Source of the DNA: Purpureocillium takamizusanense
Lineage: Eukaryota; Ascomycota; Sordariomycetes; Hypocreales; Ophiocordycipitaceae
NCBI RefSeq assembly: GCF_022605165.1
Contig: NC_063069.1
Span: 2,604,001-2,668,000, forward strand
Direction: 5' to 3'
Length of the DNA: 64,000 nt
Both the position numbers and the translations under genes were made by a program. Below are positions 3 through 60,949 of the stretch, piece by piece. Every line of letters begins with the position of its first letter. Positions within the stretch are counted from its first letter, which is position 1. The notes under the pieces are model-generated. The model worked only from the letters and a program-made list of their open reading frames with translations. It was not told the origin of the DNA and searched no databases.

Positions 3-1049
3 ATGGACCTGCCCCTGCAGCAGATGGGGCTGGATTCATTGACGGCCGTCTTGACGCGCAACGAGTTGGCTGCCCTGACGGGGCTCGCGCTGCCGGCAAA
101 CACCACATTGGGCTACCAGAGCGTCAGGGCACTCGCCGAGCTCCTCCTCTCCCTGATCCCACGCGGAGCCCGTGCAAGCCCAACGTCCAGCGCGACGGAG
201 ACGACAGGCGCGTCAACCCCTCCGCCCACTCCCGCTCCCACATGTAGCGACAACAGCCAAGATGTCCCGAGTGATTCTTCTCCATCGACAACTGCCCCCA
301 ACAGCCGCCTTCTCTGTCCTGCGCTCGGCCTTGTGCCGCCGCATTCCCCTCCTCAGCTCTTTGCCTCGAGCTGGAGCTACTTCGAAACCCTTGCCTGGTG
401 CTCGCGCCTCCTGCAAGAATCCTCGCCCACGACTGGCCTGTTGCCCGGCCACGGCCAAGCCATCGGCTTCGTCTTGCCTGGCTTCAACCCTTCCAGCCCG
501 GAACGAGACCAGTTCATCGGGGGCACGCTGTCCCACCGAAGCGAGAACGGAAAACATGGCAACAACAAGGCATGTTCCAGCACCATGAACAAGAACACAC
601 CGCCCCCGCTCCGCCACATGCTCTGCCTCTTCCGCCCCTCTGACGCCGCCCACCTAGCGGACGCCTCTCGGCCCATCCAACGCGTCGTGACACTGTTCGC
701 CCTCGGCGACGGCACATCCGGCTTCCCGGGCATGGTGCACGGCGGCCTCATCGCCACGCTCCTCGATGAGAGCCTCGGCGCCGTCAACGAGCTCAACGCC
801 GCGCTCGGCAAGCGCCAGCAGGGCGGCGGCACCAGCACCAACATCAACGTCACCGCATCCCTCAGCATCGAGTACCTCGCTCCGCTGACCACGATGGAGG
901 AGGTGGTGTGCGTGACGGCGTGGCTGGCGGGCGTGCGAGGGCAGAAGACGATTGTCAAAGCCGAGGTGTCCGATTCTCGAGGGGGAATCCTCGCCGCGGC
1001 GGAGAGCACGTGGGCGACAGTCGCGGTGCCGTCAGCAACGCTGGCCTAG
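3..1049 (+). CDS. Polyketide synthase C-terminus (partial): acyl carrier domain fused to hotdog thioesterase
   Basis: The gene enters from the left edge, so only its 3' part is visible. The first 50 codons form an acyl carrier domain: the GLDSL motif (in-window residues 9-13) holds the serine that carries the phosphopantetheine arm, followed by the usual helical tail. A Ser/Thr/Pro-rich linker follows (about 55-118), then a 4HBT/PaaI-like hotdog thioesterase (about 120-345) with the GMVHGGL...DES segment (HGG 246-248, Asp255) of this fold. The part before HGG resembles the N-terminus of stand-alone fungal hotdog thioesterases, but has no in-frame ATG of its own and no stop between it and the carrier domain, which supports a true fusion. 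The likely role is release or editing of an acyl chain from the carrier. The alternative is an unrecognised intron joining two genes; an out-of-frame ATG at 262 begins a presequence-like peptide. It ends in TAG at 1047-1049. Confidence 0.7.
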   Translation: MDLPLQQMGLDSLTAVLTRNELAALTGLALPANTTLGYQSVRALAELLLSLIPRGARASPTSSATETTGASTPPPTPAPTCSDNSQDVPSDSSPSTTAPNSRLLCPALGLVPPHSPPQLFASSWSYFETLAWCSRLLQESSPTTGLLPGHGQAIGFVLPGFNPSSPERDQFIGGTLSHRSENGKHGNNKACSSTMNKNTPPPLRHMLCLFRPSDAAHLADASRPIQRVVTLFALGDGTSGFPGMVHGGLIATLLDESLGAVNELNAALGKRQQGGGTSTNINVTASLSIEYLAPLTTMEEVVCVTAWLAGVRGQKTIVKAEVSDSRGGILAAAESTWATVAVPSATLA

Positions 1050-3978: not shown

Positions 3979-5888
3979 GGTTCGTGGTGGTGGGATGACG
4001 ATGATGTCTGTCGCTCGATGCAGGGAGAAGCGATCAAGCAGCCGGTGCCATGGTCCGTCCGTCGCAGCAGCACGAGGGATAGTCAGGGATGGGATGAGCG
4101 AGCGCTCGCTTCTAGGCGGATGATGGATTGAGGTCGCAGAGTCGCGGCTGGGGGGGAGGATGGCGGGGATGGCTGAACGGGCGGGCGAGAGTTGAGTGGT
4201 GAGGAAGCGTCAGCTGGTTGCTTGCCAGGCCGATCAGGTCAGCCTCTCGTGGCGGGCGGAAGGGTGGAGGGTGGAGGAGGAGGAGGCGGGCGATGGCGGA
4301 CTGCCTGACGACAACGTGGAGCCCGGGGGGCGTGGGCTTGTGGACTGTTCCAACGGGACAAAGTACTCCATACCTCAGGTACCTGTGCTGCCGTCAATCC
4401 ACTGATGCGGTAGCCCGAATGCTGTGCTTCTTGGGCGGGTGTCGTCGCTGCCTGGAGGCAGGTTCACAAGTACCTTGCCTAAGATGGTACCTCGCCCTGC
4501 TTAGACTGTCCCGCCAGGGGGGGCTGGGCGGGTGGCGGTCGAGCGCAGCACGCAGGGAACACGGGTTCCAGTTGATGGGGGCCCACCTAAGTTTAGTAGT
4601 ACCTCGTAGTACCCTTAGCCAGGAGGCACAGTGGGTGTAGGTACCTGAGAACAGCGGGCACGGTGGACGGTTCGGGCGCTAGGACATCCGTGAGGTGCCC
4701 GAACGGGGCTGAGGCGCCTGGACATTGTCAAGCCGCGCGCACCCTGGGTGTAGACCGCAACACGTTCCAGTCTCAATGGAGCCCGTAGCCTAGCAGTGGA
4801 GGAGGCCTAGACGACGACGGGTTCAGTGCGGCGACCGCTGGAACTCAAACGCTCAGAACCCCCTCCGCTGGGACCTCAGCTCCCGTCCGATGCGGCCGAG
4901 GCACACATGCTGCCGCCGCAGGCTTGCACTTGCTTGTCTGATGCCAAACGAATCCTTCGAGAAAACATGTATGTGCTAGGTATATTGCCTCACCTGCCTA
5001 AACAATTCAGGCCAACAAACCGTTTCGGTTGTGGCCGGCCGTGGTCAAACGAATGGAGAGCGGCGACGGCACCCGGCCGTTGTTGGTTCGCTTCCCCGCC
5101 TCTTCCTCCCCCGCTTGGCGTTCCGCTCGTGGGCCGCGCGAGGACGGGCGTCGATGGCGCACAGCGAGGAGGACCCCCCAGCAGCACTCTAGTCTCTCTG
5201 GATGGGACGGCAAGCCCGCTGCAGACGGGGGGTTTTTCTGCCTCGTGCAGAGCACGCAGACCTCTCTGAAGTGCTCATCACACATGGGACCGCCGCGCGC
5301 GAGACAGGGCCCCGAGCCCGTCCCGTTCAGCGGATAACCCGCTGCACGTAACCCGTTGCACGTACACCGTTGGTGGGGTAAGAAAGACAAGAGGGAGGAC
5401 TCAGGATTCCAATGAGCCCATCGACGCACCAGCAGCACAATAGGTTCCCCAGTGGCTGCGCGCTAACCCTTGAGCAGCGAAAATAACTTACTAAACCCCA
5501 GGCCTAGAAGGGGGGACCGGCTAACGACGTACTAAGGTAGTTAAGGTAGGCGGCTTCCACGGCGCCGGGGGCAGCAGCCCCTCCCCCACGCCACATTTAT
5601 CGACAGTGAGGTTCAGGCGGTCGCCGCTGCGGGCGCGCCAACACCTGCTCGCCCCGGCTGCGCGAAGAATAGAGGCGCACAAATAAAGTGCGTACGGCCT
5701 GCAACAGGGTGCCTGCATGCATCATGCCATGCATATATAGGCGTGGAGGTGTGGTGGTGGTGGTTGCAAGAGGGTTGTTGATACGTGGGGGATTGTAAAT
5801 GTTTCTTTGGGTGGTGAGGGTCCAACGCCGGCTGACAGGGCCGATGCAAGACAAGACAGAAGGACGGGCAGGGCTGGGATGGGCAGGG

Positions 5889-5912: not shown

Positions 5913-7364
5913 TACGGAGACTTCTCGTTCCACCAGCAGGAAGCAGACCGGTCGAGTGCGATGGCCACGCGGACGGGCACATACATGACTCGAGCCCTCG
6001 TGGGTGATGGAGGACTCAGGAGCGGGAGGAGAAAGGCCACCTCACTTCTTACCGTACACCACGGACGGGCATGGCCGCTGCTGCTGTTGCCTGCGATGCG
6101 ATGCGATGCGACGAAATACAATGCGCTGCGACCGCGCGACGAAACCGGGGTCGTGTGCACGGCGGTCTTTTTTTTTGTAGCGACCGGCCTCGGTGCCTGG
6201 GGAGACGAGTAGTTGCATTCCAGCGAGCCGCATCGTCCTGTTAGTTCTGGATGTGCATCGATGGAGCGAGCGGTGGCGGATGTGCCCGGGCAGCCAGCAC
6301 GCACTGGGTACCTTGGCAGGACTCCACTAACAGGTGCGCTGTCTTCTACCTCTAGCAGCGTCCATGGAACGTCCATCGAGGGTCCTTGGCTTCCCTAGTA
6401 GTAATAACAGTAGCACTACACCTACGAAGTAGTCGAGGTTTCTCTCTCTCTCTGGGACTCTTCAGCGTGCTGTTTCTCGAGCACCCCCCAGCAGCCAGAG
6501 GGCACGCCCCGGGCCGGAAGGAGCGGCTGAGCTGAGCCGCCAAAAGGAATGAACAAGCCAAGATACGGACTTGACACCGCGCCATCACCACTCCTTCCTC
6601 TCCTCATCATCATCACCGGCGCGAACAAACAACAGGCCTGGCCAGCTTGCCTGCTCGGGTGTCTTTATGCTTGGTAATCCCACGTCGTACAAAAAGTCCA
6701 GCCCCACCCGCCCTCTCCCTCGTCCGTCAAGTATAGTACGAAGTACAGTACTGTTCGTAGCGAAGGATGGTAGAATAAGACACGATCGTATCGTACTGTA
6801 CAGTATCAAGTTAGCGCCAGAAGGGGGGGCTGAAGCCGTCTGTGCAAAGGAGAACTCGTCGAGGTTACGTCGAGACGTTAGGTCATGCGCACGTACGGCG
6901 TGGGGGAGGCATGAGAAAGAACCATGCATTTTTCTTCTTTGCAACGCGGCAAGAGTTTATCCAGAGTTCCACATCAACAGCAAGCACGCACGGCGGCATC
7001 ATTCGTCTTTCCCACTGCCGCCACAAACACCACACTCAAAACCACCGTCGACGCCCGTCCCTCTACGAAGTACACATTTTACACTCGCCCATGTTTCTTG
7101 ATCGTGTCTCAAAGGGGGCGGGATATGCACATATGTCTGCCTATGAAAATCCGAACTGTGGTAGAGGATAGATAGATGTGGTGCACTTATAGAGTTGCTT
7201 GTCTTAATGATGTGTATGCTTTTGCTTTGTGCTTTCTGCCGGCTTGTGGGTGTTGTGATGATCGGAGGAGGAATTGCGGCCGTGGCCCAGGACGTCTGAT
7301 AAGGAACTTATACCCGCCTACAAATTAATATCTAACGTAGTTAATACAGAATCTTATGCCGGTG

Positions 7365-7393: not shown

Positions 7394-8410
7394 TCTCCAA
7401 CTCGGCACCATCACCAACCACCCCCTCATCCATCCGTCCATTCACCTTGTCCCCCCATCCATCCAGTACAGTCGGAGGGGCCATGCACGTAGTTGCCCCT
7501 TGTCACAGAGGCAAGTCCAGAGAGCAGCCATTGGCATTCGCTCCAGAAGCAGCCCAGAACGCATCTTGGCTTCCCTCCCTTCCTCGCACACGAACCATTG
7601 CTTGCCTTGACCTAGGCCGTTTCCCCTAGATGCCGGACAAGGGCAATGCAGGAATGCGTGGAAGAGCATACTAAGTTAGTGCAGGAGACATACGTATGTA
7701 CAGGACAGTACGGTGTGAGTTACAGTATACGTGCACCCACTCTGCCCTGCGTGATCATGGGTCGTCCGTGAACAGATGCGGCGCCACGGGTCAGGGGGGG
7801 CCATGGATCCTAACGACGACCGCATGGCCACACACCACCTTCTACAGACGAGCCATTCGCTCACGTTCATGAGCGTCTGCTTCACTTTGTAATGAATATA
7901 CATCCGTCGCGCGAGGCAGCGGGCTTTGACAAATGATGTCACTTGCTGTCGTCACAGCCCCCCTGTCCCTCCCCCGCTTGCCACGGAGGAGAAGAAGCTA
8001 GGGGGGTTTGCAACGCTCGGGGCAGCACGATCCGAGCACGCGCAGGGGGCAAAGGCGAGAGCCCCGCCGGCGTCCGCCACCTCGTGGTGGCTTATTACGG
8101 ACATTACGCACGTACTTCCGGCGATGACTCCACTTGAGATTTATCAACAAAATCGGTGGACCCGCCGTCGGCACTTGGGGACAAATCGTGGTCGGCATGC
8201 GGGCGGGCTTGACAAGGCCATTGATGGACAGGATGACGGGTAAGGCAAGTACAAAAGCCCCCGTGGGAGGTGCAACGCACCCGGGGGGGCCGGAGTCTTG
8301 ACGTTTTATGGGGAATCCTGCAACGGGTTGGGGACGCGTTGCACCATCTGCCGGCATGCTTCTATATATATAACATATACATCTAATACGCAGCCCCATC
8401 GGAGCCATGC

Positions 8411-27831: not shown

Positions 27832-28314
27832 CTACCAGCAATGTACCCTCCATCTACCCGAGCGCTGGTTTTTTCGCCAGGCATAACACGATCCCGTAGT
27901 GCATGGCTAGGATGCATATTCAGCATTCACGTTGATAGGTAGTTGGACTCGTTGACCTACTGCAGTACGGAGGCACGTTTCATTGTGACGGCGGAGATAG
28001 ACCTCCCAAAACCTACCTGCCAGATTGTCTGAGTCCTTATTGTACCAGGGGCGGGTTGCCCAGTCGAAATAACATTTCTGATCCGATGTGTCGCAATGCT
28101 ATACACAAATATGTTAAAAATGTATACCCCCTTGCTGTTAAAGAGTAGAGTATCTACATACTCCATAGATGGACTGCTCAACCCCAGTCCGCTCTCGTTC
28201 AGCGACCTCGGCGTCGGCTAGGCAATGAAATGCTCCCAACAGCACATCATCTTCCCTCGGGCGACGCCCTGCAGACAGCGCTACGGGCAACAAGGAGAGG
28301 AAGAGAAGCTTCAT
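27832..28314 (-). CDS. Small secreted seven-cysteine protein, copy 2 (uncharacterised family)
   Basis: I do not recognise this protein. Three exons (28314-28162, 28098-27961, 27906-27832) give 121 residues. Exon 1 starts with a clear signal peptide (MKLLFLSLLPVALSAG) and holds one mature Cys. Exon 2 begins HCDTSDQKC and ends shortly after the fourth Cys; exon 3 supplies three more Cys and a C-terminal Cys-Trp. Both introns are phase 0, with donors GTATGT and GTAGGT and acceptors TATAG and CCTAG. A TATA box lies 87 bases upstream of the ATG. The model was fixed partly by comparison with the gene at 60286-60949, which has the same intron phases, cysteine count and core residues. If intron 2 is retained, a 114-residue product with four mature Cys results. 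The gene sits at the edge of an AT-rich island. A role outside the cell (effector, antimicrobial or surface protein) is only inference. Confidence 0.62.
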
Positions 28315-29212
28315 AGTCGTCGACTGATGTCTCGAGAGTTTAAGGGCTTGGTGGCGGTTCTTAAACCAACTAATACGGAATCTGGGGGACAACAGGTGTC
28401 TTTATAGGCCATTGCATTGGCGTTAATGGAAATGATATACATGCGTAATATTAGTGGCAAATCAGCCTCAGTGATAGCCATATATTAGTTATCCCTTAGG
28501 TACGATCTAGGTGGGAGCCTGATATTGAGACGTACGGATGCCTATAGTTGGTACCTGCTGAATGCACGGAGCCATTTTGGCTCTACCCGGGCGAGTTGCA
28601 TTTTTAAGGGTATCACTATTTATATCGTAGCAGTACTAACTATACACAGAATGCCACGACTTTTACGTATAGGCTCTAGAAGTGTGCGATAGGAGAATGC
28701 GCTACTATGAAAGCGACGTCGAGAGAGTGAATCGTAGACTACTCGTAGTTAATACGTTACGTAAAAGGGGTCTTTCGCATCACGAGAAGAAGGGGAAGGA
28801 AGATATAAGGACGTAAGACTTATAATATAGATATAATATAACACCTTATCTATGTGTTTAAAGCGCGGTGACGATATCAGGCCAGGTTGCTCCGATAGGC
28901 AGGCCTTTTTAAAAAGGAACCCCACCCCCCTTGATAGCTCTCGATATCCCCGAGCCCTCCTAAAGATAGAGTCTTCGTTATCGTAATGCCCTACGAGCCA
29001 TCCTTATAGGCAGCCGCCCTACGTAACCCTCCATGGCTCTAGATACGTCCCTTTATACGATATCATTACTGTTTGCTAGCGACGGCAGTCGGCACGTTAG
29101 GATAGCAGCTATGGTTAAAGTATACTCGGAACTCCGGTGGCGTTTATAATCTTCATGTCCTCTCTAGCCCTTTGACCCCAGTATACATCATTAAACTCTC
29201 AAGTCATCGAAA
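28315..29212. other. AT-rich decayed island
   Basis: Base composition drops sharply here, with TA-rich words throughout (for example 28800-28860), against clearly GC-rich flanks. All six frames are broken by stops. The texture suggests an old transposon or duplicated DNA eroded by C-to-T mutation, possibly repeat-induced point mutation, but no terminal repeats, transposase or reverse-transcriptase motif can be read, so the source is unknown. Confidence 0.55.
28401..28406 (-). promoter_or_regulatory. TATA box of the small secreted protein gene (copy 2)
   Basis: TATAAA on the minus strand lies 87 bases before the ATG at 28314, leaving room for a leader of about 55 bases. The spacing supports a real, tightly initiated promoter. 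Confidence 0.55.
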
Positions 29213-60034: not shown

Positions 60035-60126
60035 GCCAGCCTCTCCGTGTCCGTTTTTGTCATTCTTCCGACTCTCTCCATCTCACCCTGCAACGCTCCC
60101 TCATCGTCGTCGTCATCGTCGTCTTC

Positions 60127-60182
60127 TTTTTTTTTTTTAAAAAAAAAAAAAGAAGAAGAAGAAGAAGAAGAAGAAGAAGAAG
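60127..60182 (+). repeat. T12-A13-(GAA)10 palindromic tract in the leader
   Basis: T12 (60127-60138) and A13 (60139-60151) are followed by about ten GAA units (60152-60182). With the preceding TCTTC, the centre forms an inverted repeat of at least 15 bases per arm. It sits between the TATA box and the start codon of the secreted protein gene, so it should be transcribed. Confidence 0.85.
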
Positions 60183-60285
60183 CTTTTTCGTAGCTCACCC
60201 CGTCTCAGCGCGCCCAAGCCCTCTCACTTCACGACCCCCTCTCACGCTGCAGAGTTGGAAACGGGCCTCAGAGAGCCAGCCAACC

Positions 60286-60949
60286 ATGAGAGCGTCGCTG
60301 AGCATTTGCGTACTCGTCCTCTGCGTCGCCGCCTCCGGCACCAATTTCGTCTCGGACGACGATGATGTCTGCAACACCTGGTACGACGACTGGACGAAGG
60401 CCTCCAATGCCGCCCAAGGGCTCAACTCGCAACCAAGGTATATGACGGGCGTGAGTTCACTCTCGTTCCCCCTTGAACCCCAGCCCTCGCTCCCACTCTC
60501 CACCCACCCCCTTGGCCTACGACTCAAACTCCTTTTCTTCTCTTGTCTTCTCCTTTTATTTTTATTTTTATTTTTTATTTTTGGGCAAAGATGCTGACGA
60601 TGGGCATTTCGTGTGCACGTGTGCATGCGTGCAGCAATGTTCAGTCGAGACCCAAGAATGCGTGCGCGACCACTTCAAGCCAACCTATCAAGTGAAACAT
60701 CAGAATGAAAAGCCTCCAGAGTTATGGTACAAAGTAGTGAGGCAATCAGGGGCTTGGCCATGTCCAACGCATGCACCGGTAAGTTTTTTTTTTTCTTTCT
60801 TGCGCCTCCGGGAAAGGCGAGACGTGGAGAGCCGTGCATGTCTGTCGTGTGCTAACCGCCGCGCTCTTCGACTTACTTATTAGTGTCGCGCGGACAACAC
60901 GCAGTGCATGCACAGCATTGCTCAGGATTCCACGATTTGCAGTCTTTGA
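60286..60949 (+). CDS. Small secreted seven-cysteine protein, copy 1 (uncharacterised family)
   Basis: I do not recognise this protein. Three exons (60286-60450, 60635-60778, 60884-60949) give 124 residues. A signal peptide (about 1-18, hydrophobic core VLVLCVAA) is followed by an Asp-rich stretch and one mature Cys in exon 1. Exon 2 starts QCSVETQEC, carries the PELWYKVVRQ segment and ends shortly after the fourth Cys; exon 3 starts CRADNTQC and ends ICSL. Both introns are phase 0 with donors GTGAGT and GTAAGT; intron 2 has a GCTAAC branch site and TATTAG acceptor, and intron 1 ends GTGCAG. A nearer acceptor (GCAAAG at 60590) would keep another frame and is less likely. The gene at 27832-28314 has the same architecture, cysteine number and core residues. 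A role in the extracellular space is likely from the signal peptide; anything more precise is guesswork. Confidence 0.72.

Follow-up and report, generated by a model that had tools for sequence, protein, structure and literature searches.

The window analysed here, 64,000 nucleotides of Purpureocillium takamizusanense DNA (contig NC_063069.1, positions 2,604,001 to 2,668,000), carries two short genes, A and B, that an earlier note described as an apparently undescribed, two-member family of seven-cysteine secreted proteins sharing common descent. The locus raises the question of whether these genes are in fact a pair, what family either of them belongs to, and what such proteins might do in a fungus whose strain PT3 is termed entomopathogenic (PMC9302088).

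Gene models and the relatives of gene B

Rebuilding the two proteins by splicing gave, as described in the earlier note, 124 residues for gene A and 121 for gene B, each from three exons with both introns in phase 0; all four introns are bounded by GT..AG (Table 1). Both begin with a hydrophobic leader, which was judged by hydrophobicity in A and in the B-family proteins. Seven mature cysteines are present in A (29, 57, 64, 98, 104, 111, and 122, with leader cysteines at 8 and 13) and in B (31, 53, 60, 93, 99, 104, and 120). The exon 2 pattern proposed for the pair, C-x6-C-x2-D-x8-K-x8-[LF]-W-x4-R-x5,6-C, occurs literally in both proteins, and in each the last cysteine is followed by just one or two residues.

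Table 1. Coordinates of genes A and B in the window and of the relatives of gene B on contigs C1, C4, and C5 of the same genome.
Feature	Position	Strand	Content and evidence
Gene A exon 1	60286..60450	+	Codons 1-55, hydrophobic leader and acidic segment; open reading frame, strong GTGAGT donor, coding-like codon usage
Gene A intron 1, 184 nt	60451..60634	+	GTGAGT..GCAG
Gene A exon 2	60635..60778	+	C-x6-C ... W-x4-R-x6-C; phase-0 open frame, CAG acceptor to GTAAGT donor
Gene A intron 2, 105 nt	60779..60883	+	GTAAGT..TTAG; contains GCTAACC, branch-point-like
Gene A exon 3	60884..60949	+	C-x6-C-x10-C-x2-stop; phase-0 open frame past TTAG acceptor
Gene B exon 1	28162..28314	-	Hydrophobic leader and acidic segment, no conserved Cys; paralogues keep start, leader, and exon end ...G|GT
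Gene B intron 1, 63 nt	28099..28161	-	Identity 73-78% to P11/P12/P20 introns, 49% to P10
Gene B exon 2	27961..28098	-	Cys 1-3 of six-Cys core; 43.2 bits, E 2.7e-12 with B excluded from the model
Gene B intron 2, 54 nt	27907..27960	-	Identity 80-87% to P11/P12/P20 introns, 68% to P10
Gene B exon 3	27832..27906	-	C-x-T-G-x-C ... W-x3-C-x-stop, Cys 4-6; exon 3 genome pattern search
Gene B upstream 100 bp	28315..28414	-	Identity 66-72% to P11/P12/P20, 63% to P10
P10	C5:582237 onward	+	B relative, tandem array
P20	C5:583633 onward (8133-8665 of C5:575501-585500)	+	B relative, tandem array
P11	C5:584722	+	B relative, tandem array
P12	C1:5154928	-	B relative
P25	C4:2557481 and below	-	B relative, decayed copy by its sequence

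Alternative one- and two-intron models were enumerated for gene A. When only strong donors were allowed, 39 models resulted; three of them have at least seven mature cysteines, and the model of the earlier note is the sole one of these three with 100-150 residues. Allowing loose donors gave 377 models, of which 169 reach at least seven mature cysteines, so the cysteine count by itself is weak evidence for gene A and the quality of the splice sites is the better support for the model. Codon usage favours exon 1 and does not favour exons 2 and 3, a test that is non-discriminating because the score exceeds zero in just one of 15 B-family exons. Genome searches gave no convincing second copy of gene A. 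Matches on contig C6 (E 0.0015 with the whole protein and 0.073 with exon 2) and contig C7 (E 0.037) were rejected as contiguous frames without the cysteine pattern. Simple repeats lie upstream of the gene at window positions 60125-60185, where T and A runs are followed by a GAA tract.

Gene B belongs to a larger group. Searches of the 35,574,015-base, 14-contig assembly with B and then with three relatives found in this way gave at least five relatives, and hence at least six loci with B, as lower bounds: three in tandem on C5, one on C1, and a broken one on C4. The two-member family of the earlier note is accordingly too small. P10, P11, and P12 splice at the places used by B into proteins of 117-119 residues that are 32%, 41%, and 38% identical to B, respectively, and all four genes have three exons, introns in phases 0/0, and an exon 2 that starts x-C-x6-C. 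The predicted splicing of gene B is supported by these exon and intron boundaries conserved in its paralogues. A DNA pattern for the end of exon 3 (T-G-x-C ... W-x3-C-x-TAG) matched B, P10, P11, P12, and P25 only in a search of the genome, and the reversed pattern, used as a control on the same genome, had no match. P20 escaped this pattern because it reads 20 residues beyond the last cysteine where the others read one; its introns are those of the B family, it is without both Cys1 and Cys3, and it may be losing or changing its function. P25 is, by its sequence, a decayed copy with GTG in place of the ATG of the others and exon 2 split over two frames, and its exon 3 is still readable. The B-family proteins have 117-138 residues with a hydrophobic leader, and masses of 10.9-13.9 kDa with 18 residues removed.

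The four sound copies (B, P10, P11, and P12) have six conserved cysteines in common, rather than the seven of the earlier note, with the spacing C-x6-C-x30..32-C-x4..5-C-x4-C-x13..17-C-x. The extra cysteine is C31 in B, lies at 19 in P12 and at 77 in P10, and is absent from P11. The odd number had been taken as a hint of dimers, which fails for the B family because the seventh cysteine is not conserved and the core has an even six. Invariant columns in the four sound copies include the six cysteines and F62, W64, A65, P68, W82, R87, T101, G102, and W116 of B; the cysteines, W, and R of the originally proposed exon 2 pattern are invariant, whereas its D, K, and [LF] are absent from the invariant columns. 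The cysteine core begins at exon 2, and exon 1 encodes the leader and a segment without conserved cysteine. This post-leader segment is acidic in A, B, P10, P12, and P20 and has a net charge of 0 in P11. The net charge of the core is +5 in B, +8 in P20 (tail included), +2 in P11, +1 in P12, and 0 in P10. P20, a single sequence, has lost Cys1 and Cys3 together, as would be expected if the two were bonded, which suggests a Cys1-Cys3 bond in the B family.

Other loci of note lie near these genes. A RiPP locus that we take to be ustiloxin-type and dikaritin-like adjoins the P10-P20-P11 array (C5:575501-585500; local 342-1007, minus; 2016-2600, minus; 4236-4682, plus). Two of its open reading frames match Pfam UstYa (E 2.7e-38 and 1.8e-35), and a precursor-like frame encodes a leader and six SEAQSPD[IV]LYNNQAGWGK repeats with KR-type sites between them; Pfam had no match for this precursor or for a third nearby frame (local 4872-5726, minus). 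Near P12 (C1:5150001-5160000; local 6020-6394 and 8016-8408, both plus) are two mutually similar leader-like starts, MRPYLVVSLLLSVAQAG... and MRPYLVLAILFRHVLAV..., perhaps another small secreted pair. At the left edge of the window (3-1049, plus), carrier-protein (PP-binding) and 4HBT-type thioesterase domains may mark where a polyketide synthase-like gene ends.

Relation of gene A to the B family and to known proteins

Whether A and B diverged within a single family is a separate matter from the question of function. We lean slightly towards distant common descent of the two genes, as the earlier note had proposed. Intron 1 is located at the same residue and in the same phase in both, one residue ahead of C-x6-C. 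Exon 1 of A, anchored on the gene structure and compared with the family, outscores all 6000 shuffles and all but one of 4993 natural decoys. None of 500 shuffles with fixed cysteines reached the score of the whole mature chain of A, and the 11.7 bits given by the full-length family HMM were reached by 6 of 3000 cysteine-fixed and 1 of 3000 full shuffles. Alignment of A with the B family by hhalign had P 0.0014; all of these P values are uncorrected, with several segments and tests tried.

Other results argue against a single family. The hhalign probability is just 17%. With the cysteines fixed, the exon 2 score was reached by 26 of 500 shuffles, which is marginal, and the exon 3 score by 183 of 500, no better than chance. 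Profile scans of the window fail to single out A: its exon 2 frame ranks just 1065 among the 1417 matches listed for the family exon 2 HMM, its exon 1 frame ranks 45 among the 1840 listed for a family exon 1+2 model, and its exon 1 frame is not among the matches listed for local scans with exon 1 models of the B family. Exon 3 of A, C-x6-C-x10-C-x2, is without the C-x-T-G-x-C and W-x3-C-x-stop hallmarks of the B family. The equivalence claimed for both introns holds for intron 1, and intron 2 lies one codon out of register with the cysteine that follows it. Gene A looks like the gene of an orphan, secreted, cysteine-rich protein, which may be related to the B family at a great distance.

The earlier note could match the pattern to no known family, and library searches agree with it. 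Pfam-A gave sub-threshold matches only (best E 0.045 for B and 0.098 for A), a PDB search gave nothing above threshold and no significant sequence relation of the B family to a solved structure, and NCBIfam, a prokaryotic library, had no match for any of the five members scanned (P20 left out). A word-based search of 5.8 billion proteins, which needs shared words, has low sensitivity for such fast proteins, and may leave out near relatives, found no candidate with three shared 5-residue words for gene A; the alignment of four B-family sequences drew 903 candidates, none of them at E<=10. A neighbouring ubiquitin hydrolase, used as the positive control, matched Tolypocladium, Hirsutella, Trichoderma, and other fungi, so the protein database contains fungi, with many Hypocreales among them; Purpureocillium lilacinum is absent among the names in the best 120 of 618 control matches. 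In a phage collection, searched with gene A alone, none of the seven records returned was better than E 0.7. No description of the B family was found in the literature, as far as titles and the beginnings of abstracts show.

Divergence of exons, introns, and scaffold

The close copies of the B family differ more in their exons than in their introns. Segment alignments of the six pairs among B, P11, P12, and P20 show higher identity in both introns (73-93%) than in all three exons (57-80%); this fails in the four P10 pairs (introns 49-72%, exons 50-71%). Whole-unit alignments covered P11, P12, and P20, with B left out. Identities in P11-P20 are 86/78% in the upstream 100-bp blocks, 83/87% in the introns, 58/55/58% in the exons, and 74% in the first 100 bp downstream. 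The corresponding values are 78/83% upstream, 87/89% in introns, and 62/56/48% in exons for P12-P20, and 85/84%, 93/91%, and 80/72/64% for P11-P12; the first 100 bp downstream is unalignable in both P12 pairs (31-36%). P11 and P12 differ at 9 of 96 positions in the intron cores, 25 of 103 third codon positions, and 36 of 103 second codon positions (p=1.6e-5 for second positions versus intron cores). Third positions exceed introns in all four P10 pairs (p 0.045 or less), and second positions do so only in the pair with P20 (p 0.013; p 0.059-0.67 in the others). Duplicates mutated by RIP differ nearly exclusively by C-to-T/G-to-A transitions. Transitions are just 34-45% of the exon differences across the 10 pairs of the B family, which excludes RIP as the main source of divergence.

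A comparable pattern is known from animal venom multigene families, such as crotaline phospholipase A2, in which exon evolution is accelerated. The close B-family paralogues resemble them in having introns and upstream DNA more alike than exons and in keeping a cysteine scaffold; unlike the venom genes, to which they have no homology in what is a comparison of workings, their synonymous sites outrun introns too and omega=1 is not rejected. A report on the variable AGL proteins of arbuscular mycorrhizal fungi describes introns more conserved than the mature coding sequence, so the pattern is already in print and not new to fungi (PMC8786786). As presented there, the AGL surface proteins are GPI-anchored, repeat-bearing orthologues of Glomeromycotina with one intron, after the ER signal, unlike the B family with its two introns.

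The mature-part dN/dS by the counting method is 1.17 for P11-P12 (bootstrap 0.69-2.11), 1.14 for P12-P20, 1.03 for B-P12, 0.74 for both P11-P20 and B-P11, 0.53 for B-P20, 0.44 for B-P10, and 0.31 for P12-P10, and is saturated for P11-P10 and P10-P20. Bootstraps of six pairs placed B-P20 below 1 in 97% of replicates, and the intervals of the other five span 1. Fixing omega at 1 in a codon model gives no worse a fit than leaving it free (lnL -1354.491 versus -1354.489; with P10, -1653.89 versus -1653.20), so positive selection is not shown by the formal test. The ratio of dN to intron distance is 2.8-5.7 in the six non-P10 pairs and 1.4-2.6 with P10. Four-fold sites in codons that keep their amino acid differ at 3/21 (P11-P12), 4/16 (P11-P20), 5/15 (P12-P20), 7/19 (B-P11), 4/12 (B-P12), and 8/14 (B-P20). 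These sites differ more than introns in the non-P10 pairs, clearly in five of the six (25-57%). Since synonymous sites also outrun introns, the introns and the upstream DNA are probably under some constraint themselves, and the ratio to intron distance exaggerates selection. The possibility that the counted dS is inflated merely by multiply hit codons holds on these four-fold sites for P11-P12 alone.

Scaffold and other residues change at very different rates. Four of the ten pairs were tested, with scaffold columns picked from the remaining three sequences in each case. Scaffold positions changed at 1/18 versus 49/85 elsewhere in P11-P12, 1/17 versus 66/84 in B-P12, 4/20 versus 62/82 in P12-P20, and 4/20 versus 58/82 in P11-P20. 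The non-scaffold columns have dN > dS in three of the four pairs. We read the B family as a conserved scaffold on which the other residues appear to be rapidly replaced. Positive selection on the family is suggested and, in our judgement, likely, and is not proven.

Candidate roles of the B family

The B family is tentatively interpreted as a secreted, disulfide-bonded, effector- or toxin-like domain with a surface that may track a changing partner, probably the invertebrate host. The proteins would be exported, and the 67-70-residue core encoded by exons 2 and 3 is expected to be held by three disulfides. The six cysteines together with F-x-W-A, P, W-x4-R, T-G, and W would form the scaffold that is kept while the rest is replaced fast. 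The compact domain would then bind an ever-changing target, most likely an invertebrate-host molecule, and each duplicate may explore a new surface. The view of the earlier note that these are secreted, effector-like proteins would hold for B and its paralogues, which combine fast protein change with the conserved six-cysteine scaffold. They share with the effector-like small secreted cysteine-rich proteins of fungi, which are grouped by features rather than by homology, a short chain, a hydrophobic leader, the absence of a Pfam domain, paralogy, fast change, and six or seven cysteines in the core of the sound copies; unlike the typical members of that class, they come from an apparent invertebrate pathogen and not from a plant pathogen. 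This reading has to accommodate whole-protein dN/dS values of about 1 or less, a broken copy and a copy minus two cysteines that are expected also under relaxed selection, and an intron contrast that is weak or absent in the P10 pairs.

A more specific version, possible but rather doubtful, is that the B family would be an undescribed, venom-like diversifying family in which the six-cysteine scaffold, tandem duplication, and exon-focused positive selection, with introns and promoters almost unaltered, would reflect an arms race with an invertebrate host; A would then share the fold as an ancient outlier. It is somewhat unlikely that the B proteins are a relaxed or decaying orphan family in near-neutral drift, with short introns and promoters that look conserved only through constraint. 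A dN/dS of about 1 with omega=1 not rejected is consistent with drift, as are four-fold sites that exceed introns in the non-P10 pairs (clearly in five of six), the broken copy on C4, and P20 with its two missing cysteines and its 20 residues beyond the last cysteine; against drift, four copies keep the six cysteines, three W, T-G, and the reading frame while over half of the residues differ in most pairs, and changes are few in the scaffold and many elsewhere in P11-P12 and B-P12 and also in the two P20 pairs tested. A role in guarding the cadaver against other microbes, as antibacterial, antifungal, or killer-type proteins on the same disulfide scaffold whose diversification competitors would drive, is improbable: such proteins typically have small disulfide-rich domains and the cores of B and P20 are basic, but those of P10, P12, and P11 are not clearly so, and neither Pfam nor the solved structures gave a match above threshold.

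Effector and toxin families seem to be far less characterised in insect-pathogenic than in plant-pathogenic fungi. Under the preferred effector- or toxin-like reading, interest shifts from the A-B pair to the family of gene B, which is compact, has a clear scaffold and tandem copies, and has exons that outpace introns. These properties make it a testable candidate for host-driven diversification, in which the residues that vary, perhaps the contact surface, are separated from those that hold the fold.
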